DNA from: Prevotellaceae bacterium UBA7028
Lineage (GTDB): Bacteria; Bacteroidota; Bacteroidia; Bacteroidales; Bacteroidaceae
Direction of reading: 5' to 3'
DNA: 8,502 nt
Assembly: GCA_002494215.1 (NCBI GenBank)
Contig: DLBF01000133.1
Coordinates: forward strand, 1-8,502
Made by a program: the position numbers and the translations under genes. Every line of letters starts with the position of its first letter. Position 1 is the stretch's first letter. This document shows positions 1 through 8,502 of the stretch, piece by piece. The notes under the pieces were generated by a model. It did no database searches, was not told where the DNA came from, and saw only the letters and a list, made by a program, of their open reading frames with translations.

Positions 1-1223
1 ATGGCATCATCCACCACCGTACCGATAACCAGCACGAGGGCAAAGAGGGTAAGCAGGTTCAGGCTAAAGCCTATGAAGTAGAGTACGGCAAAGGTTCCTA
101 TCAGGCTGACCACAATAGCCAGCGAGGGGATGAAGGTGCTCTTCAGGTCTTGCAGGAAAATGTACACCACCAGCACCACCAGGATGATGGCTTCCAGCAG
201 GGTGCGTACCACGTTATGGATACTGGCATCCAGGAAGTCCTTGGTGCTCATCACATCCACCAGCTCCATGCCTGGGGGCAGCTCCTTCTGAATCTCCAGA
301 GCCGTCTCGTCTATGCGTTCGATAATCTCGTTGGCATTCGAACCAGGCGTCTGCGCAATCATACAGTTGGCACCCGCGTGTCCGTTGGTGCTGTTCTGGA
401 TGGTATAGTTCTGGATACCCAACTCCACACGTGCCACATCCTTCAGGCGAAGCACACTTCCATCGGGCAACGACTTGATGACCATATTCTCGTAATCGCG
501 TTCCTCTTCGTAGCGTCCTCTGTATTTCAGCACATACTGGAAGGTATTCTCCGCATCGGCTCCCAGGGTTCCCGTGGGAGCCTCTATGTTTTGCTCTGCC
601 AACACATTATCTATATCCGATGGCATCAGACCATAGGAAGCCATCCTAAGCGGATCGAGCCAGATGCGCATACTATAGCTGGCACCCCAGATATTCACCT
701 CGCCCACACCAGGCACACGCGACAAGCGAGGCTCGATGTTAATCTTCATGTAGTTGGTCAGGAAGTCTGTATCATAGGCATCCGTAGGGCTATAGAGCGA
801 GAGGCTCTTGATGTTGCTGGTCTGACGCTTACGGACCGTCACGCCACTTCGGGTTACGTCGGCAGGCAGCTGTCCCTGCGTAGAGGCCACACGGTTCTGC
901 ACATTTACCATAGCCATATCGGCATCGGTGCCCTGCTTGAAGTAAATGCTGATGCTGCCCGATCCCGTATTGGTAGCCGAGGAGGTCATGTACATCATGT
1001 TCTCCACACCATTCAGGCTCTCCTCCAGAGGAATAATTACGCTCTTCTGCACCGTCTCGGCATTGGCGCCGGTGTAGTTGGCACGCACGCTAACGGTTGG
1101 TGGTGCAATCTCGGGGAACTGCTCAATGGGCAACTGCAATAATCCTATCAGTCCCAGCACCACAATGAATACTGAGATTACACCAGAGAGGATTGGACGG
1201 TCTATAAAGGTCTTTGGTGTCAT
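1..1223 (-). CDS. RND-family (AcrB/HAE-1-like) multidrug efflux pump, N-terminal part
   Basis: This is the inner-membrane, proton-driven pump subunit of a tripartite RND efflux system. Only 407 complete codons are present, against roughly 1,030-1,060 for the family; the rest lies beyond position 1. Translating the complement from the ATG at 1223 gives an uninterrupted frame. Residues about 10-30 form the first membrane helix, followed by the family signature LPIEQFPEIAPPTV and then the porter domain, with the recognisable stretches NYTGANAETV and LNGVENMMYM. Residues about 345-407 contain helices 2 to 4. The sequence ends in GTVVDDA, so D405 and D406 match the AcrB D407/D408 proton-relay pair. 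The start codon overlaps the adaptor stop codon (ATGA), which implies translational coupling. Hydrophobic-drug (HAE-1) specificity is inferred from overall similarity. No outer-membrane channel gene is visible; it could follow beyond the window edge. Confidence 0.95.
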   Translation of the reverse strand, partial: MTPKTFIDRPILSGVISVFIVVLGLIGLLQLPIEQFPEIAPPTVSVRANYTGANAETVQKSVIIPLEESLNGVENMMYMTSSATNTGSGSISIYFKQGTDADMAMVNVQNRVASTQGQLPADVTRSGVTVRKRQTSNIKSLSLYSPTDAYDTDFLTNYMKINIEPRLSRVPGVGEVNIWGASYSMRIWLDPLRMASYGLMPSDIDNVLAEQNIEAPTGTLGADAENTFQYVLKYRGRYEEERDYENMVIKSLPDGSVLRLKDVARVELGIQNYTIQNSTNGHAGANCMIAQTPGSNANEIIERIDETALEIQKELPPGMELVDVMSTKDFLDASIHNVVRTLLEAIILVVLVVYIFLQDLKSTFIPSLAIVVSLIGTFAVLYFIGFSLNLLTLFALVLVIGTVVDDA

Positions 1224-2308
1224 TTTACTTCAACCCCCTCCTTGAGCAATCCTGCTCCTTCGGCAATAATGATGTCGCCTTCTGCGAGACCTTCCTCCAC
1301 GATATAGCTGATGCCGTCATCCAGGGGAGCGACACGGATTTCCGTCTGAGCCGTCTTGCCATCGATGACACGATAGACGAAGACCTTGTTCTGCAACTCG
1401 AAAGTAGCTGTCTGGGGGATGACAATCACATTATCCCGGATAGTAGAAACCACTACCGTTCCTGTGCCGCCATTACGAAGAAGATGCTCATTATTGGGGA
1501 ATACGGCACGCAGGGAGACTGCACCTGTGCTGGCATCCACAATGCCGCTTACGGCATCCACCCTACCCTTCTGGGTATATTCCTTACCATTACTCAAGAG
1601 TAGAGATACATCGGGCATACCCTTCATGAACGCCTCCAGGCTGCCGTATTGTAGGGTCAGGTCGGTCACCTCACGCTCGCTAAGGCTGAAATAAACCCAC
1701 ATCTCGCTATCATCACATACAGATATCAGGGGTTCGCTAATATTGCTGCTAACCAAAGCCCCTACGTGGTAGGGAATCATACCAGCCACACCACTAACGG
1801 GACTCTTTACAGTTGTATAGCTAAGGCTGTTGCGTGCATTTGCCACCTGGGCCTGGGCCTGAGCCACCTGAGCCTGGGCAGAGAGCAAGGCCTGCTGGGC
1901 AGTCTGCAAATCGTAGTCGCTAATCACCTGCTGGGAACGCAGTTGTTTCTTGCTGTCGTAATTGAGTTGGGCCGTAGCCTCGGCAGCCTTTGCCGACTTC
2001 AAGGCGGCCTCTGCCGTGTTCAAAGCTTCCAGATAAGGAACCTGGTCAATCACAAAGAGCGCCTGCCCCTTGTGTACCTTCTGCCCCTCGGCAATCAATA
2101 TCTTTGTTATGAGGCCGCTCACTTGAGGTCTGATTTCCACAATCTCCTTGCCCTTCATAGTGGCGCTGTAGTTAGCCTTAACGGCCTGACTGGTGCGTTC
2201 CACCTTCATGGTTTTATACACAAGAGCATTCTTCTCCTGCTTCTTGTTCTGGCAAGAGAAGAATAACAAAAGGGCCGGCAAGAGTGCCCAGAAGGTCTTC
2301 CTTATCAT
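1220..2308 (-). CDS. RND efflux periplasmic adaptor (membrane fusion protein), lipoprotein
   Basis: This 362-residue protein is the adaptor that links the RND pump to an outer-membrane channel. Its N-terminus is a lipoprotein signal with hydrophobic stretch ALLPALLLFFS followed by Cys19, so it should be lipid-anchored to the inner membrane and periplasmic. Residues about 55-90 form the first half of a lipoyl/barrel-sandwich domain (RPQVSGLITKI, then EGQKVHKGQALFVID). Residues about 97-163 are an Ala/Gln-rich helical hairpin with near-heptad repeats such as AQAQVAQAQAQV. The lipoyl second half follows (VKSPVSGVAGMI), then beta-barrel and membrane-proximal segments to residue 362. Length and domain order are typical of AcrA/MexA-type adaptors. 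The ATG at 2308 is the only start that gives a full lipoprotein signal. The gene lies 48 bp after the permease and overlaps the pump by 4 bp. Substrates cannot be read from the sequence. Confidence 0.95.
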   Translation of the reverse strand: MIRKTFWALLPALLLFFSCQNKKQEKNALVYKTMKVERTSQAVKANYSATMKGKEIVEIRPQVSGLITKILIAEGQKVHKGQALFVIDQVPYLEALNTAEAALKSAKAAEATAQLNYDSKKQLRSQQVISDYDLQTAQQALLSAQAQVAQAQAQVANARNSLSYTTVKSPVSGVAGMIPYHVGALVSSNISEPLISVCDDSEMWVYFSLSEREVTDLTLQYGSLEAFMKGMPDVSLLLSNGKEYTQKGRVDAVSGIVDASTGAVSLRAVFPNNEHLLRNGGTGTVVVSTIRDNVIVIPQTATFELQNKVFVYRVIDGKTAQTEIRVAPLDDGISYIVEEGLAEGDIIIAEGAGLLKEGVEVK

Positions 2309-2356
2309 TGTTGAATGGTTTTATCGGGTGGATATACTATCGAAAAAGGGATAACG

Positions 2357-3676
2357 TTAAGATTTCTCCTTTCCATGGAAAGACTTTACCTTCATACCCA
2401 ACTTGTTTGGCATGATGGCATTGAGGAAGATACCAACAATGGCAGCAATGGCCAAACCAGAAAGGTGGATGGGACCGATGGCGATATCATCGTTGGCACC
2501 ATACTTAACACCAATGGCCAATACAAGGATAAGGGCTGCTACAAACACGTTGCGTGAGCTCTTCAAGTCAACCTTCTCCTCTACCAAGTTACGAACGCCC
2601 ACAGCAGAAATCATACCATACAGGATAAGGCTGACTCCACCAATGGTGGCAGCTGGCATCAGCTGAACGAGGCAAGCAAACTTGGGACAGAAAGCCAAAA
2701 AGATAGCCAGACAAGCTGCTATGCGGATTACCATGGGGTCGAACACCCTGGTAAGGTTCAGCACACCAGTATTCTCGCCATAGGTGGTGTTAGCAGGAGC
2801 GCCAAAGACAGAAGCAACGGCTGTAGCGATACCGTCACCTGTTAATGTTCTGTGCAAACCTGGCTCGGTCAGATAATCCTTACCAACCGTTGAACTGATG
2901 GCAAGCATATCGCCAATATGCTCCATGATGGTAGCAAAGGCAATGGGCATAACGGCCAGAATAGTCGAGAGCATCAAGGTTGTGTTTCCATCTTCGAAGA
3001 CAGCCAGAATGGTGTGATCCCTCTGGATGGGGAAACCCACCCATGAAGCCTGACCAAGAGGAGTAAAGTCAACTTCACCCATACAGGCTGCAACGGCATA
3101 AGAAATCATTACACCCAGCAGAACGGGAATAATCTTGATAAGGCCCTTACCCCATACCGATGAGGCAATCACGGTAACAATGGAGATGATGGCCAGCAAC
3201 CAGTTGGTCTGACAATTAGAAATAGCCGAACCAGACAGCACCAATCCAATGGCAATGACAATAGGACCGGTCACTACGGGTGGGAAGAAATGCAATATCT
3301 TCTTGATGCCGAAGGACTTTATCAATGCTGCCATCACAAAATACATAAATCCTGCACAAGCAACACCCAAGCAGGCATAATCCAAGGCAAGTGTCTCGGA
3401 AAGACCTTGTGACACACCCATTTCCTTAACAGAGGCATAACCGCCTAAGAAGGCAAACGAAGAACCTAGGAAGGCGGGTACATTCCACTTGGAAATAAAA
3501 TGGAAAATCAGGGTACCGATACCGGCAAACAGCAGGGTAACGGATACATCCAAACCAGTAAGCAGGGGTACCAAGACCGTTGCGCCAAACATGGCAAACA
3601 AATGTTGTACACCCAGTATCATCATTCGAGGTGTGCCCAGCTGACGGGCATCATAAATGGCATTTTGTGGTTCCAT
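2357..3676 (-). CDS. uraA: Uracil permease, NCS2 (nucleobase:cation symporter-2) family
   Basis: This 439-residue polytopic membrane protein probably imports uracil with protons as part of pyrimidine salvage. The N-terminal helix carries QHLFAMFGATVLVP and the third helix carries the half-helix motif FLGSSFAF, both typical of UraA/PyrP. Aligned with E. coli UraA, the substrate and proton residues E241, H245 and E290 fall at E252, D256 and E301 with a constant offset of 11. The motifs are MEHIGD and TTYGENTGV. D256 replaces the UraA histidine, and Asp at this site is also known in NCS2 xanthine transporters, so xanthine or another base cannot be fully excluded. The GLHR segment (273-276) and GENTG favour the uracil branch. 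A good Bacteroidetes-type promoter lies just upstream, and the stop is TAA. It is first in a same-strand run with the efflux genes, although a functional link is not obvious. Confidence 0.92.
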   Translation of the reverse strand: MEPQNAIYDARQLGTPRMMILGVQHLFAMFGATVLVPLLTGLDVSVTLLFAGIGTLIFHFISKWNVPAFLGSSFAFLGGYASVKEMGVSQGLSETLALDYACLGVACAGFMYFVMAALIKSFGIKKILHFFPPVVTGPIVIAIGLVLSGSAISNCQTNWLLAIISIVTVIASSVWGKGLIKIIPVLLGVMISYAVAACMGEVDFTPLGQASWVGFPIQRDHTILAVFEDGNTTLMLSTILAVMPIAFATIMEHIGDMLAISSTVGKDYLTEPGLHRTLTGDGIATAVASVFGAPANTTYGENTGVLNLTRVFDPMVIRIAACLAIFLAFCPKFACLVQLMPAATIGGVSLILYGMISAVGVRNLVEEKVDLKSSRNVFVAALILVLAIGVKYGANDDIAIGPIHLSGLAIAAIVGIFLNAIMPNKLGMKVKSFHGKEKS

Positions 3677-3704
3677 ATAGATTTATGTGTTTAAAAATTT
3701 CCGT

Positions 3705-3737
3705 CAAAGGTACATATTTTTTGTTAAAACTGACAAA
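3705..3737 (-). promoter_or_regulatory. Bacteroidetes-type promoter of the uracil permease gene
   Basis: On the minus strand the -7 element TACCTTTG (3712 to 3705) matches the consensus TAnnTTTG exactly. A -33 element TTTG (3737 to 3734) lies 21 bases upstream, within the normal spacing. The predicted transcript start is near 3698, which leaves a short AT-rich leader of about 20-25 bases before the ATG at 3676. No riboswitch or attenuator fits in such a short leader. Confidence 0.7.
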
Positions 3738-3798
3738 AAAAACTGTATGCCAAGATAGGAAAAAGGGGCAAAAAAGAAGGAATAATCCAGAAAAAACA

Positions 3799-3816
3799 TA
3801 TTTTTGCATTCGCAAA
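3799..3816 (+). promoter_or_regulatory. Candidate -7 promoter element of the fucosidase gene, with overlapping small palindrome
   Basis: TATTTTTG at 3799-3806 fits the Bacteroidetes -7 consensus and lies 39 bases before the fucosidase ATG. No TTTG/TTG is present at the expected -33 distance, so the promoter may need an activator. The inverted repeat TTTGC-ATTC-GCAAA (3803-3816) overlaps the element and the likely transcript start, a position where an operator could act. The palindrome is short and could be chance in this AT-rich tract. Confidence 0.45.
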
Positions 3817-3845
3817 TAAACAAAAATGACAATACTTTTAATAAG

Positions 3846-5234
3846 ATGAAGAGGTTTTTCTTAACTTTAGCATTACTGTTGGCATGTAATATCAGCATGC
3901 AGGCAGCAGAAAAGAGCCTGTACCAGTTGCAGCAGGAGTTTGTGGATTTGCGCTTTGGCATGTTCATCCACTTTAATATCCCTACCTATTCGCCAGAAGA
4001 CTGGCCCGACCCTGACCAGCCTGCCTCTACCTTCAACCCTACCCGACTGGATTGTCATCAATGGGCCAAGGCAGCTAAAGCGGCCAATATGTCGTACGGA
4101 TGCCTGACAACCAAGCACCATAGCGGCTTCTGTATCTGGAATACCAAGACAACGGATTACAACAGTATGAACTCGCCCGTACACAAGGATGTGGTACGCG
4201 AATACGCGGATGCTTTCCGCAATGAGGGCCTGAAAGTGATGCTCTACTACAGCATTCTGGATACACACAGCCGATTGCGCCCTGGGCGTATCGATACCAA
4301 GAAACATACTGCCATGATAAAGGCACAACTAACGGAACTGCTGACTAACTACGGAGAGATTACAGCACTCATCATCGACGGATGGGATGCCCCATGGTCA
4401 CGCATCAGCTACGAGGATATTCCCTTCTACGAAATATACCAACACATCAAGAGCTTGCAGCCCAACTGCCTGGTGATGGACCTGAATGCAGCCAAATATC
4501 CAAGGGAGGCGCTCTTCTATACCGACATCAAATCCTACGAGCAGGGAGCCGGTCAGAAGATCAGCACAACAGAGAACCGTCTGCCTGCCCTTGCCTGTCT
4601 GCCCATCCAGCGCACATGGTTCTGGAAGGAGAGTATGCCTACAGACCAACTTAAGGATGTGAACTGGTTAGTCAAAGAGAACATTATACCTTATAATAAT
4701 GCGTACTGCAACTTTATCCTGAACGTAGCTCCCAATCGCGATGGTCTGATGGACGATAATGCCGTGGAAGCACTCCGTCAGATTGGCAGTATATGGAAGA
4801 ACGAGGGACCCACACAGCCCATTCCCGAGTGCGACGCCCCCATCATCACCACCAATATTGCCAAGCATCAGCCCACAGAATACAGTTGGAGCTACGACTA
4901 TGGCATTGGCGACTTCGCCAATAACGATAACTTCTCGGATGCATGGACATCTCACCCTTTGGTGAAGGAACCATGGTGGGAAGTATCACTCGACAAGAAG
5001 CGTGCCTTTAACCGCATCACCATCTTGGAACAGCAAGGAGAAGCCATTCAAGAGTACCGTTTGGAGTATCTGAACGGCAAGAAATGGACTACCCTGTTTG
5101 AGGGTCAGGCTGCCCCAGGCCGCATAAAGCAACACACATTCCCAGCCGTAAAAGCTGAGAAGGTGCGTATTACTGTTCTACGTCACAATGGAACGGTAAA
5201 GATTGCTGAGTTCGGGGTATATGCTGCAAAGTAA
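3846..5234 (+). CDS. Exported alpha-L-fucosidase-like glycoside hydrolase (GH29) with C-terminal discoidin/CBM32-like domain
   Basis: This 462-residue enzyme probably releases alpha-L-fucose from glycans by a retaining mechanism. The ATG at 3846 was chosen because it begins a clean signal peptide (MKRFFLTLALLLAC); a longer frame from a TTG at 3804 puts polar residues in front of it and overlaps the promoter. Cys14 in LLAC could make it a lipoprotein; otherwise signal peptidase I would cut near residue 20-21. The catalytic TIM barrel spans about residues 25-325, with GH29 hallmarks RFGMFIHF (36-43), TKHHSGFCIWNT (89-100), TTDYN, and NFILNVAPNRDG (289-300). D178 in LIIDGWD is the likely nucleophile; E232 or E243 is a candidate acid/base, not settled by eye. 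Residues about 370-462 resemble an F5/8-type C carbohydrate-binding domain (WWEVSLDKKRAFNRITI, then VRITV). No SusC/SusD genes are adjacent. Exact glycan preference is unknown. Confidence 0.9.
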   Translation: MKRFFLTLALLLACNISMQAAEKSLYQLQQEFVDLRFGMFIHFNIPTYSPEDWPDPDQPASTFNPTRLDCHQWAKAAKAANMSYGCLTTKHHSGFCIWNTKTTDYNSMNSPVHKDVVREYADAFRNEGLKVMLYYSILDTHSRLRPGRIDTKKHTAMIKAQLTELLTNYGEITALIIDGWDAPWSRISYEDIPFYEIYQHIKSLQPNCLVMDLNAAKYPREALFYTDIKSYEQGAGQKISTTENRLPALACLPIQRTWFWKESMPTDQLKDVNWLVKENIIPYNNAYCNFILNVAPNRDGLMDDNAVEALRQIGSIWKNEGPTQPIPECDAPIITTNIAKHQPTEYSWSYDYGIGDFANNDNFSDAWTSHPLVKEPWWEVSLDKKRAFNRITILEQQGEAIQEYRLEYLNGKKWTTLFEGQAAPGRIKQHTFPAVKAEKVRITVLRHNGTVKIAEFGVYAAK

Positions 5235-5264
5235 AAAAACAGCCTCTCCCCAAAATTTTATCAA

Positions 5265-5272
5265 TATTTTTG
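5265..5272 (+). promoter_or_regulatory. Candidate -7 element for the sigma-factor cassette
   Basis: TATTTTTG fits the Bacteroidetes -7 consensus and lies about 65 bases upstream of the sigma-factor ATG. No TTTG/TTG is seen 19-21 bases further upstream, and the surrounding sequence is AT-rich, so a chance match is possible. If real, the transcript would have a leader of about 55-60 bases containing the inverted repeat at 5303-5327. Confidence 0.35.
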
Positions 5273-5302
5273 TAATTAAGGGTATTTGGTTTTGCCACTC
5301 GA

Positions 5303-5327
5303 GGGTCTTATAGACAAAAAGAGACCC
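5303..5327 (+). repeat. Inverted repeat (6-bp stem) in the leader of the sigma-factor gene
   Basis: GGGTCT (5303-5308) and AGACCC (5322-5327) are perfect complements separated by a 13-base A-rich loop. The repeat ends 10 bases before the ATG at 5338. As RNA it could limit ribosome access; as DNA it could be an operator. There is no T-tract after it, so it is not an intrinsic terminator of the upstream fucosidase gene. The function is inferred from position only. Confidence 0.4.
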
Positions 5328-5337
5328 GACAGACATT

Positions 5338-5829
5338 ATGGATTATAGTAAACAAAAGTTTGAACGCCTGTTCAAGGACAACTATCCGCACATGTATCGC
5401 ATGGCTTTCTCGCTGGTAGAGAATGCCGACGATGCTAAGGATGCCGTCCACTAGGTGTTCGCTCAAATCTGGCGAGGCAAACCACAGATTAGCGAGGACA
5501 GCTTCAGAGGCTATCTGCTGGCTGCCACTCGCAACCAATGCCTGCACATGTTGCGCTCCAGACAACTACAACGTAAGATGGAGGAGGAACTGCAACGCGA
5601 GACAGAAGATGCCCAGAATGAGGAGCGCGAAGAGTTGCTGCAACAACTCAGGCAGGTTATTAATGACAACCTGACGGAACAAGACCGACGGGTCTTGCAA
5701 CTGCATTACGAGGACGAGATGACCTATCAGGAAACAGCTTCTGTATTAGGCATCAGCACTTCGGCAGTCAACAAACACATCACGCGTTCGCTGTTCAAAA
5801 TCCGTAAAACCCTAAAAATCGCTAAGTAA
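5338..5829 (+). pseudogene. ECF (group 4) RNA polymerase sigma factor gene interrupted by an in-frame TAG
   Basis: Reading from the ATG at 5338 gives a 163-position ECF sigma factor, but codon 39 (5452-5454) is TAG. Codons 1-38 give a clear sigma region 2 start (FERLFKDNYPHMYRMAFSLV, then DDAKDAVH). After the TAG the same frame continues with VFAQIW, RGYLLAATRNQCLHML, and region 4 at about 112-160 (LTEQDRRVLQLHYEDEMTYQ, then the recognition helix ISTSAVNKHITRSLFKIRK). In homologues the interrupted site is normally Gln, Glu or Asp (DIVQEVF-like), so one base change from CAG or GAG explains the stop. A GTG follows directly at 5455 and would allow a 124-residue product lacking much of region 2, probably not a working sigma factor. 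The stop codon TAA is 1 base from the next gene. Alternatives are a sequencing error, amber suppression, or a recent inactivating mutation; intactness elsewhere favours recent change or error. Confidence 0.85.
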
Positions 5830-5830
5830 G

Positions 5831-7621
5831 ATGAAAACCGAAGATATTGATAAAAAAATAGGCATGCCCGACGTGGACAAGGAATGGGCACGCTTCGAGC
5901 AGGAAGTCATTGGCAAGGAGCCAAAGGCTAACAAGCGCTCTATATATTCATGGATAGGTGGCTTAGGGATAGCTGCTTGTCTCCTACTCTTCTTCCTTAT
6001 TAATATGGGGGATGAACCCAAACCTGCAACACCTGTTGTAGCTGAGCAAGCAGAACCAGAGCCCGTTCAGCAGCCTGCAACAAAAGAGAATAAGGAGGAA
6101 CCCGTCGTTCACATCGTTAATACGCCCCGATTCAAGAATGCTCTACGCAAAGAATTGGCTTTAGCTGAACCTAAGCCAGCTACGCCTGTTGTAGCGGAAG
6201 AGGCAGAACCTGAGCCCACTCAACAGCCAGCAGAAGAAGAGGTTAAAGAAGAACCTATCGTTAACGTCGTTAGTACCCCCCAACCCAAGAAAGAACCGGT
6301 TTTAGCAAATAACGACACTCCAGCTAGTAAGGGACTTAAGACTTCTGCCCACGAGTATACAGGTAAAGTTCAGAAGTTTAATATGGACGACGTGAAAGAC
6401 CTCGCTTTCGAATCTGTTGACGAGTCATTAAAGGATGACGGCCGCGAGTTTCACGAGGTTACCTCTTTAAAAGAGGTTCCCCTATCCCTGCGTCTGCGCG
6501 GAAGATGTGACAAAGAAACAAACAGCTATCCACTTGTCCTTGTCAATGGCGAGCCTCTGCCCGATTCTTTGATCCAACAGGTTCTGGAACTCGACGACAT
6601 TGACACCTACATGCACCGATACTTTTACCAGCAACACTTGCTGCTTGACGAAGTATATGTTTACAAAGATTCTGAGATTACAGAAAAGTTTGGTGAACGT
6701 GGCAAGCATGGTGTAATTGAATTAAGGACCGTTCCCGACACTTTTTGCGACGATTATGTCAAAGCACACCCACGTATGAAGAAGAAATATCGTCGCATAG
6801 AAGGTTACGTCGTAGGTACTGACAACAAGCTATTAACGAAGGCATGGGTATACATCAAGGGAGAGCCCGATACAGGCGCAGCAACAGACTCCATGGGACA
6901 CTTTGCCTTCTGGGTTCCCAAGAAAGATATAACGCTCTGCGTAGACCACCCAGGCTACAAGCGCGCCAAGTTCCAGCATTTCCAATTTATCTACCGCCTT
7001 GAACCTGATTCTAACGTAAATGACCAGAACTTGTGGCTTCGGGGGAATCCAAAACCGACGTCAGAATCACAGGGACAAATCGCCGGTTCGCCTGACACTC
7101 CGCCCAATGACTCCATTCTCTACCTTATCAACGGAAAGCCTCAACCTAAGGAAAACAACAAGTGGTTGAGCAAAGACACTTATCTCGACTACTTCAAAAA
7201 GCAACATCTGCATGTTGAAAGAGTAATGGATTACACGAATGTTAAACAACGCTACATCGAGAAGTTTGGTGAGGCAGCAAAGTATGGTGTCGTGGAGTAT
7301 ATATGCGTGGAGGACACCCGTGGAGACTACTATATGGAGCAGCACGAGGAACTGAAAGCAAACCGTCGCCGCGTTTCGGGCGTCGTTCTTGACGAGAACG
7401 ACAAACCTTTAGGCAATACCACGATTTTCATATTGCATGATAAAGGGATATGGGGAACCGAAAAGACTGATTCATCGGGAAACTTTGCCTTCTGGGTTCC
7501 TCGCACAGACGTCAAGTTGGACCTCACACACTATGGCTATAAGCCTGTTGTCGTCGAACCAACCGATACATTCCAAACAATCCATCTTCTTCCCACAGCT
7601 ACCATGCAGAGCACGAAATGA
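5831..7621 (+). CDS. Putative anti-sigma/sensor membrane protein with two tandem plug-like plus carboxypeptidase-regulatory-like modules
   Basis: No exact family is recognised for this 596-residue protein, but its architecture is clear. Residues 1-36 are cytoplasmic, and MPDVDKEWARFEQEV resembles the N-terminal helix of Bacteroidetes FecR-type anti-sigma factors. Residues about 39-58 form one membrane helix (WIGGLGIAACLLLFFLI). A Pro/Glu-rich periplasmic linker (61-150) contains a 40-residue repeat. Two copies of a module follow, about 233-386 and 428-583. Each begins with a TonB-plug-like half (LVLVNGEPLP and VYVYKDSEITEKFGERGKHG in copy 1; LYLINGKPQP and EKFGEAAKYGVVE in copy 2). Each ends with a regulatory-like beta-sandwich half (IEGYVVGTDNKLL, TDSMGHFAFWVP; VSGVVLDENDKPL, TDSSGNFAFWVP). 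No TonB-receptor barrel follows. It starts 1 base after the sigma gene, suggesting coupled translation and a sigma-holding, periplasm-sensing role. That role is inferred. Confidence 0.8.
   Translation: MKTEDIDKKIGMPDVDKEWARFEQEVIGKEPKANKRSIYSWIGGLGIAACLLLFFLINMGDEPKPATPVVAEQAEPEPVQQPATKENKEEPVVHIVNTPRFKNALRKELALAEPKPATPVVAEEAEPEPTQQPAEEEVKEEPIVNVVSTPQPKKEPVLANNDTPASKGLKTSAHEYTGKVQKFNMDDVKDLAFESVDESLKDDGREFHEVTSLKEVPLSLRLRGRCDKETNSYPLVLVNGEPLPDSLIQQVLELDDIDTYMHRYFYQQHLLLDEVYVYKDSEITEKFGERGKHGVIELRTVPDTFCDDYVKAHPRMKKKYRRIEGYVVGTDNKLLTKAWVYIKGEPDTGAATDSMGHFAFWVPKKDITLCVDHPGYKRAKFQHFQFIYRLEPDSNVNDQNLWLRGNPKPTSESQGQIAGSPDTPPNDSILYLINGKPQPKENNKWLSKDTYLDYFKKQHLHVERVMDYTNVKQRYIEKFGEAAKYGVVEYICVEDTRGDYYMEQHEELKANRRRVSGVVLDENDKPLGNTTIFILHDKGIWGTEKTDSSGNFAFWVPRTDVKLDLTHYGYKPVVVEPTDTFQTIHLLPTATMQSTK
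6011..6283 (+). repeat. Tandem repeat encoding duplicated Pro/Glu-rich linker
   Basis: Residues 61-100 (6011-6130) and 112-151 (6164-6283) of the membrane protein are two copies of one segment, offset by 51 residues (153 bp). Both contain KPATPVVAE, AEPEP, QQPA, KEEP and a VVxxP-like end. Third-position differences between the copies show the duplication is not very recent. The composition suits an extended periplasmic spacer. Confidence 0.85.
6527..7579 (+). repeat. Duplicated coding module (plug-like plus regulatory-like), two diverged copies
   Basis: The segments 6527-6988 and 7112-7579 encode the two homologous modules. The best-conserved part encodes FAFWVP, where 19 bases are identical (6900-6918 and 7482-7500), a spacing of 582 bp or 194 codons. 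Elsewhere the copies are clearly diverged in protein sequence, so this is an old domain duplication within the gene and not an assembly artefact. Confidence 0.8.
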
Positions 7622-7640
7622 AGAATAAAAACTTACAAAT

Positions 7641-8303
7641 ATGAAGAAGCAAATCATTACATTAGTGACGTTTCTAATGGCGGCCGCCATTGGCGCACAG
7701 GCTCAGAGCAGGCTGGAACCCATGACACAAACTGATCAGAAGCTGTGGGGAGAAAAGTATTTCGAGACTTGGCTTTCCGGGAAGGCAAGCCAACAGATGA
7801 TTAAGTTCCCTACGCCCATGGAAGACTTCCCCTCCGCCCTGTATGTGTATAGCGGTTATGGGGAAATAGAGCGGTTGCAGGTAAAAAGGTGTGTGATGAA
7901 CAAATATGCCAAACGAAATGAGCCGAAGCTGAAGTTGGGCTCTACAGAAATCAAGACAGACAAGGAAACGACATTGGCGTTTTCCAACTTAATTAAACAT
8001 GCAGTCAGCACATGTATGTTTAATGACAATCGATTAGGATTCGATGGAACCACTTACTTCTTTGGTGATTATAGTCGTGTAGCCAGAATATGGTCGCCAG
8101 ATTTCGGAAGCAATTGCAGGAGACTGACAGATGTGTTGGAAAAAGCAATGGCAGCCGTCAAGGACCAGAACAAAGATGAACTGAAAGGATTACTGCCCGA
8201 GGTTAAGTCCCTAACAAAGGTATTCGAGGAACTTTATCCAAAAGACTTAGACAGGGAGTGGGAGAAAATCGATAGCGTTTTATCGGCCAAAGCGAAATTG
8301 TAG
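7641..8303 (+). CDS. Secreted protein of unknown function, third gene of the sigma cassette
   Basis: This 220-residue protein has a standard signal peptide, with basic KK at residues 2-3, a hydrophobic core, and a signal peptidase I site AQA between residues 21 and 22. It is therefore expected to be periplasmic or exported, with no lipobox and no further membrane segment. The mature part is about 199 residues with three cysteines (C84, C125, C159). A central stretch, FDGTTYFFGDYSRVARIWSP (134-153), precedes a helical C-terminus rich in Lys and Glu (161-220). I do not recognise the family. It starts 19 bases after the membrane-protein stop codon and is followed by a terminator, so it very likely belongs to the same operon. 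It could be a ligand, a partner of the periplasmic modules, or the effector of the system; none of these is shown by the sequence. Confidence 0.8.
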   Translation: MKKQIITLVTFLMAAAIGAQAQSRLEPMTQTDQKLWGEKYFETWLSGKASQQMIKFPTPMEDFPSALYVYSGYGEIERLQVKRCVMNKYAKRNEPKLKLGSTEIKTDKETTLAFSNLIKHAVSTCMFNDNRLGFDGTTYFFGDYSRVARIWSPDFGSNCRRLTDVLEKAMAAVKDQNKDELKGLLPEVKSLTKVFEELYPKDLDREWEKIDSVLSAKAKL

Positions 8304-8322
8304 ACTTTAGCCCCATGAACAT

Positions 8323-8359
8323 AAAAAACGAGCACCCGATATGGATGCTCGTTTTTTTT
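8323..8359 (+). terminator. Rho-independent terminator, potentially bidirectional
   Basis: CGAGCA (8329-8334) pairs with TGCTCG (8346-8351) across an 11-base loop. The stem is extended by A6 on the left against T8 on the right (8352-8359). A CC/GG pair with one bulged A could lengthen the stem inward. It sits 20 bases after the secreted-protein stop codon and before the stop of a convergent gene. The A-tract/T-tract symmetry means it could end transcription from both sides. Confidence 0.85.
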
Positions 8360-8391
8360 ATAAGGAGTTAATCTGTTTTATTCGTTGGAGT

Positions 8392-8502
8392 TTACTCCTC
8401 AACATCTTTCTCGACGGCGCGGAAATTAGCCAGATCCTCAACCTGGAATGCCTTGATGTAAGCACTCTTACCGAAGACATCCTCCTCGGTCATGCGGACA
8501 TA
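8392..8502 (-). CDS. C-terminal fragment of an unrecognised gene
   Basis: The minus strand is open from the window edge to a TAA at 8394-8392, giving 36 residues that include MTEEDVFGKSAYIKAFQVED and end in EKDVEE. The charged composition with regularly placed hydrophobic residues looks like a genuine soluble-protein C-terminus. Its stop also lies sensibly against the terminator at 8323-8359, which would serve both converging genes. The start lies outside the window, and I do not recognise the family from this fragment. Confidence 0.6.
   Translation of the reverse strand, partial: YVRMTEEDVFGKSAYIKAFQVEDLANFRAVEKDVEE

Follow-up and report, generated by a model that had tools for sequence, protein, structure and literature searches.

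The window analyzed here, an 8,502-nucleotide (nt) stretch of Prevotellaceae bacterium UBA7028 (contig DLBF01000133.1, positions 1 to 8,502), contains an extracytoplasmic function (ECF) sigma factor gene followed by an open reading frame (ORF) of 596 uninterrupted codons at 5831–7621. It is rather likely that this ORF encodes a FecR-type-derived anti-sigma factor whose ECF sigma partner is autoregulated, and that its input half was rebuilt from parts of the TonB/SusC machinery. The initial annotation had proposed that receptor-type domains are located on a sigma-linked single-pass membrane protein, and this proposal was supported, its further interpretation in part. The features of the protein are as follows:

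5831..7621, forward strand: anti-sigma-like protein, whole ORF, 596 amino acids (aa)
5942..6004, forward strand: transmembrane helix, residues 38–58 (hydropathy and helix 38–58 in the structure model)
6005..6490, forward strand: periplasmic linker rich in proline, glutamate and lysine, residues 59–220 (composition, repeat, low model confidence)
6491..6778, forward strand: putative reduced SusC-type plug, module a, residues 221–316 (profile match to SusC plugs)
6785..6973, forward strand: N-terminal extension (NTE)/CarboxypepD_reg domain 1, residues 319–381
7106..7354, forward strand: plug-like module b, residues 426–508 (profile match to module a)
7361..7594, forward strand: CarboxypepD_reg domain 2, residues 511–588

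A short N-terminal end is followed by a single transmembrane helix, the linker and two tandem modules, each composed of a reduced SusC-type plug and a CarboxypepD_reg domain as known from the NTE of SusC. Only one strongly hydrophobic stretch was observed in the hydropathy profile (19-residue windows starting at residues 36–45). Within the linker, proline, glutamate and lysine account for 40% of residues 60–190, the corresponding DNA holds a tandem duplication (6013–6291, period 153, 1.8 copies), and the structure model showed predicted local distance difference test (pLDDT) values below 50 across residues 26–231. The predicted topology comprises one helix across the inner membrane and a linker reaching into the periplasm. 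Furthermore, the two halves of the protein represent an internal repeat, with 61 of 151 aligned residues being identical (score 236 vs. at most 60 in 1000 shuffles). The protein stops at the second regulatory domain, and an outer-membrane beta-barrel was found neither by Pfam nor in the structure model. Likewise, the window protein showed no Pfam match to FecR or FecR_C up to E 10 and none to the M56 peptidase domain.

Both regulatory domains were recognized by Pfam as CarboxypepD_reg domains (best stretches 323–380 and 515–576, E 2.3e-14 and 3.9e-15; family matches PF13620 at E 3.9e-15 and PF13715 at E 2.3e-14), and their identity as SusC NTE/CarboxypepD_reg domains was supported by sequence profile and by fold. 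The N-terminal part of NCBIfam TIGR04056 (SusC/RagA) matched at E 5e-10, scoring 38.4 bits vs. a cut-off of 368. In the protein encoded by the window itself, no Pfam Plug match appeared up to E 10; among the 49 proteins of alignment A1, however, 36 were matched. This alignment consists of the window protein and 48 of 120 listed homologues (out of 401 found, the listing being skewed toward the window's architecture by the search design). In profile comparisons using hhalign, module a matched SusC plugs with a probability of 97.6% (E 4.4e-12; five column shuffles gave at most 1.3), and module b matched module a with 99.0% (E 2.5e-18) and SusC plugs directly with only 4.3%. Based on these profiles, module a is assigned as a putative reduced SusC-type plug, and module b appears to be connected to plugs solely via module a. 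The structure search for the plug returned weak SusC rows (E 0.09–1.2), its result lists being filled by the regulatory domain. Of the two families named for checking in the initial annotation, both were recovered by profiles and the regulatory one also by fold, and the plug assignment draws on sequence profiles rather than on a fold match. The claim of two plug-like plus regulatory modules lacking a receptor barrel was borne out by Pfam, the internal repeat, hhalign and the end of the protein; the module limits were shifted to approximately 221–390 and 426–588 instead of 233–386 and 428–583.

A query with module a also found frames of SusC length weakly (E 4e-4 to 0.007). Moreover, the relative L017 has a complete plug, and a SusC-like protein encoded in the same genome has a plug 68% identical to it over 117 aa. 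The SusC-like protein comprises 1163 aa (Plug E 1.3e-13), its counterpart in the genome of L018 comprises 1168 aa, and both adjoin SusD-like and fasciclin proteins. Gene groups of the SusC–SusD–fasciclin type were observed at L142–L145, part of which were analyzed with Pfam; their SusC plugs are 63–68% identical to the anti-sigma plug of L017. In addition, a 21-residue stretch is common to the plug query and a 2239-aa protein (L150:2123-8839), in which a GH18 domain is joined to alpha-2-macroglobulin domains.

Immediately upstream of the anti-sigma-like ORF, the adjacent ECF sigma gene noted in the initial annotation was confirmed at 5338–5829, ending 1 nt ahead of the ORF. It is preceded by a promoter-like element:

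5280..5310, forward strand: promoter-like element of the ECF type ahead of the sigma gene, GGGTATTTGRTT-N13-GTCTTA (0 mismatches)
5338..5454, forward strand: first piece of the ECF sigma gene, 38 aa covering the start of region 2, closed by an in-frame TAG
5455..5829, forward strand: second piece of the ECF sigma gene, with the remainder of region 2 and region 4 (Sigma70_r4_2, TIGR02985)

Region 4 was identified by Pfam (Sigma70_r4_2, E 1.2e-12), region 2 gave weak matches before and after the stop codon (E 0.059 and 0.01), and TIGR02985 (Sig70_bacteroi1) matched the second piece at E 9.1e-24 with 84.5 bits, under the cut-off of 126.4. By its regions 2 and 4 the gene fits an ECF sigma factor, though it is broken by the in-frame TAG at 5452–5454, a position at which none of 30 related loci is interrupted. 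Recoding of TAG in the window was rejected because the downstream gene at 7641–8303 itself ends in TAG; the codon may instead be a genuine stop, a mutation or an error of assembly. The pair in the window may or may not be functional. At L197 (genome G195), another sigma gene of this type also contains an in-frame stop, and the anti-sigma ORF behind it (335 aa) is intact.

The promoter-like element ends 27 nt ahead of the sigma start, and 0.01 matches at up to three mismatches would be expected by chance. Among 58 upstream regions (window and 57 loci), it was found with zero or one mismatch in 55 and with three mismatches at L094 and L074; L097 was without it. In 20 of 20 genomes the element was detected at the sigma gene. 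Elsewhere in these genomes, the pattern at up to two mismatches occurred at five sites vs. three for the control, and a relaxed pattern at 51 sites, of which 20 were located at sigma genes and 31 elsewhere (control: 46), i.e., no excess in either case. A regulon defined by the promoter pattern was consequently rejected, since sites outside sigma genes were not in excess of the control. The sigma factor would recognize this element, and because it is present at the own sigma gene and not enriched elsewhere, the sigma/anti-sigma pair is probably autoregulated. A broader regulon may exist through weaker promoters.

In order to evaluate the linkage of both genes, a collection of genomes representing 84,980 species was scanned with a peptide pattern, which yielded 32 related loci. 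A sigma gene was located upstream in 30 of these; L008 and L009 lie on contigs that stop before such a gene could be reached (L008 and L021 belong to the same assembly and could represent opposite ends of a single gene). Homologues without a sigma gene nearby, which the initial annotation had held to speak against its proposal, did not appear in this survey of neighbouring genes. The intergenic gap amounts to 1 nt in 36 of 55 sigma/anti-sigma pairs, and at L005 and L014 both proteins are read as one fused frame, either naturally or as an assembly artefact. Each of 13 genomes of related loci harbours a single close copy of the sigma gene, with other matches at E 5e-25 or weaker. Within the Segatella albensis family, 34 of 301 genomes possess the sigma gene (E 1e-35); at order level it was found in one of 344 genomes (E 1e-32), namely the centre genome itself.

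The part of the anti-sigma-like protein that accompanies the sigma gene is its N-terminus:

5831..5914, forward strand: conserved N-terminal segment, residues 1–28 (IDKxIGMPDVDxEWxxFExEV), probable sigma-binding segment (motif conservation)

In a search started from sigma genes, the next ORF opens with IDKxIGMPDVDxEWxxF in 54 of 55 cases, and the remaining one (L094) retains the core; three further loci, initially left out, also carry the motif. It is retained where the sigma factor falls to 49–58% identity to that of L026 from Segatella albensis DSM 11370. The structure model places helices at residues 3–9 and 15–27, within its low-confidence part. Co-conservation suggests that residues 1–28 are the probable sigma-binding segment. 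The FecR-like character ascribed to this N-terminus held insofar as FecR_C is found among relatives sharing it (L095). By motif the likeness was weak: a DVDxxWxxF-type motif was present in 5 of 14 FecR-type frames under the strict pattern and in 7 of 14 when N was allowed first, and some of these frames may not represent FecR proteins. At L005, L011, L019 and L027, a similar repeat-like insert (DPHQQPPSMGR...) was observed immediately ahead of the transmembrane helix.

Across the relatives, the periplasmic half represents a mosaic of plug, NTE, TonB_C, leucine-rich repeat (LRR), DUF4419, FecR_C and unnamed modules. The same N-terminus is combined with FecR_C in L095 (E 6.8e-13), with TonB_C in L077 (E 4.9e-13), with DUF4419 (E 5.6e-68) and CarboxypepD_reg in L085, with BspA-type LRR (E 1.2e-62) and a plug in L010, and in L071 with a domain lacking any Pfam match. 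Differences were also observed between closest relatives. L017 and L018, the nearest sigma relatives of the window (support 100/100), show the periplasmic content P-D-C3 vs. a-C-b-C2 in the window, and homologue P0014, which is 96% identical over 165 N-terminal residues, has a complete plug (PF07715) in place of the window's module a and regulatory domain 1.

This range of modules bears on an explanation that we consider unlikely, namely that the protein is an envelope-stress regulator resembling the Dma proteins without their barrel, whose linker bridges the periplasm and whose modules dock on outer-membrane complexes and thereby read the state of the outer membrane rather than one ligand. 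The linker, modelled at low pLDDT, would agree with it, as would the plan of the Dma proteins (PMC13088901), in which an anti-sigma domain, a transmembrane helix and a long disordered tether lead to an outer-membrane-related end. Moreover, a Phocaeicola anti-sigma factor that ends in a barrel controls a protective response to a toxin, with envelope stress as the likely trigger (PMC9308784). However, the window protein has no barrel, and the TonB_C, LRR, DUF4419 and FecR_C modules of its relatives have no evident outer-membrane anchor in common.

Module exchange was assessed on the sigma tree and by DNA comparison, since counts of architectures partly reflect detection limits. On the sigma tree (52 rows), the minimum number of changes was 9 for TonB_C, 10 for module D and 23 for the coarse architecture; slower-changing features were b (4), c (3) and LRR (1). 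These counts are possibly inflated, 12 of 49 inner branches being open. The idea that receptor domains were moved onto the anti-sigma factor was correct regarding the presence of these domains; a single relocation is too modest a description in view of the many changes on the tree. Among 911 module pairs of the same type, 101 showed at least 90% DNA identity, and 34 of these 101 surpassed the identity of their own sigma genes by at least 5 points. Module D of L018 and L027, for example, is 96.9% identical over 879 nt (sigma gene 80.5%, first 60 codons 74.7%), and module d of L011 and L015 is 100% identical over 291 nt (sigma gene 88.5%, first 60 codons 74.9%), both references being located upstream of the modules. 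Such differences in identity are explained most directly by recombination of whole modules between species, by which the input half was replaced repeatedly.

In total, 38 architecture strings were recorded in 176 proteins (one of them empty) and 24 in 51 closed loci; some of these may coincide, as T-C, T-P-C and T-a-C may be one type and a-C and a-C2 another, and L016, L019, L021 and L032 are cut by contig ends. A QGxIAG-like motif was found ahead of 107 of 129 b, 17 of 18 d, 10 of 13 D, 58 of 95 c and 4 of 7 P modules. As a general junction motif it was rejected, since it precedes only 15 of 142 a modules. A near-constant switch-holding end combined with repeatedly swapped outer pieces suggests a fast-changing sensor in Prevotella-like gut bacteria.

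An improbable reading is a sensor with integrated decoys, in which the modules are bait copies of uptake parts used by toxins or phages, and capture of the bait frees the sigma factor and leads to more bait. Rapid module turnover, the affiliation of several module types with the TonB/SusC machinery and a strong promoter found solely at the own operon are in line with this idea; on the other hand, neither an attacker nor a partner binding the modules is known, it is not evident how LRR, DUF4419 and unnamed modules would act as bait, and changing receptors could also drive the turnover. Just as doubtful is a wider version, a closed-loop hypervariable bait sensor with a constant core regulating only its own operon and exchangeable copies of uptake parts open to exploitation by attackers (plugs, NTE, TonB_C and others), in which either capture by an attacker or a change of the matching receptor would free the sigma factor and lead to more bait. 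Its modules would spread between species by recombination, comparable to the variation of integrated decoys in plant immune receptors. Least probable is a periplasmic part serving as structural tether or scaffold instead of a sensor, the sigma factor merely setting its dose. Such a role would be compatible with repeat-like modules and with a promoter-like element found solely at the own operon. Against it, the conserved N-terminus and the sigma gene stay together while the periplasmic part varies, and the relatives carrying FecR_C belong to a regulator type.

For the FecR-type-derived anti-sigma factor favoured here, the following mode of action is proposed. In the cytoplasm, the first approximately 28 residues would retain the sigma factor, as their co-conservation suggests. 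The single helix is predicted to span the inner membrane, and the linker would extend into the periplasm, where the tip bears two plug-like and two NTE-type domains related to the SusC/TonB machinery, as indicated by sequence and partly by fold. These domains most likely contact a periplasmic partner also used by true receptors, candidates being the TonB C-terminal domain, a SusC barrel or NTE partner, or a chaperone. Altered contact with this partner could expose the anti-sigma factor to regulated proteolysis and liberate the sigma factor, which would then transcribe its own operon. A precedent is the FoxR/FoxA system, in which, before the signal arrives, the anti-sigma factor FoxR is bound by the FoxA receptor through its signalling domain and is thus shielded from proteolysis (PMC11637429).

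Regarding neighbouring genes, the anti-sigma-like ORF is followed after 19 nt by a further gene:

7641..8303, forward strand: downstream secreted-type protein, 220 aa (homologues downstream in part of the family)

This protein has a signal-like start and no significant Pfam match. In 14 of 32 loci, the anti-sigma gene is followed by a homologue; some of the other loci end too early to tell. Distant relatives occur in 26 of the 301 family genomes, the sigma gene in 34. The protein was rejected as a constant third part of the system on the basis of the 14 of 32 loci and because 24 of the 26 genomes with a relative fall outside the 34 sigma-bearing ones. Upstream of the sigma gene, the window encodes an alpha-L-fucosidase with an F5/8 type C domain (3804–5234).

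In cell-surface signalling, receptor and anti-sigma factor are normally placed in two separate membranes. Here, the anti-sigma factor itself carries receptor-type parts, and many different input modules are combined with a constant core. The relatives thus represent a natural series of chimeric sensors for probing the periplasmic roles of plug and NTE domains. For the SusC NTE, the function is described as unknown, yet its deletion strikingly affects growth (PMC7782687). Moreover, a promoter found only at the own operon together with rapid module exchange leads one to ask which selective pressure favours such turnover in Bacteroidaceae of the gut.

Among the matches listed from the open-licence PubMed Central (PMC) literature, no title or abstract opening described an ECF anti-sigma factor bearing plug or NTE domains. 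Compared with known systems, the window protein resembles FecR-type anti-sigma factors (FecR_C, PF16344) in its neighbouring ECF sigma gene and in an N-terminus ahead of a single transmembrane helix; moreover, L095, L096, L195 and L196, which share its N-terminus, carry FecR_C (L095, by Pfam) or resemble it in sequence (the other three). It differs in lacking FecR/FecR_C, in its shorter cytoplasmic end and in having plug-like and NTE modules instead. With Dma1–3 (PMC13088901) it has in common an anti-sigma end, a transmembrane helix, a long disordered tether and a cognate ECF sigma factor, and Dma3 carries its own sigma domain, which may be compared to the fused frames of L005 and L014. Dma proteins end in a beta-barrel, whereas the window protein does not. 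Barrel-ended anti-sigma factors of Bacteroides and Phocaeicola govern vesicle formation or a protective toxin response, likely via envelope stress (PMC13088901, PMC9308784).

SusC/RagA TonB-dependent transporters share the plug and NTE/CarboxypepD_reg domains. In contrast to them, the window protein lacks the barrel, has an N-terminal transmembrane anchor and contains these domains in duplicate, with a reduced plug that comes before the regulatory domain, the reverse of the order in SusC. Finally, the M56/BlaR-type sensors, cited as a partial precedent in the initial annotation, were encountered in genomes having the window-type system: L148 (in G001) and L149 are M56 proteins with TonB_C, and L148 (L148:1616-3502), an M56 peptidase, also possesses Plug. 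The small gene beside it is presumably BlaI-like. Both types of protein bear receptor-type periplasmic domains on an inner-membrane regulator; the M56/BlaR-type sensors possess an M56 peptidase domain in place of the anti-sigma end and the ECF sigma factor.
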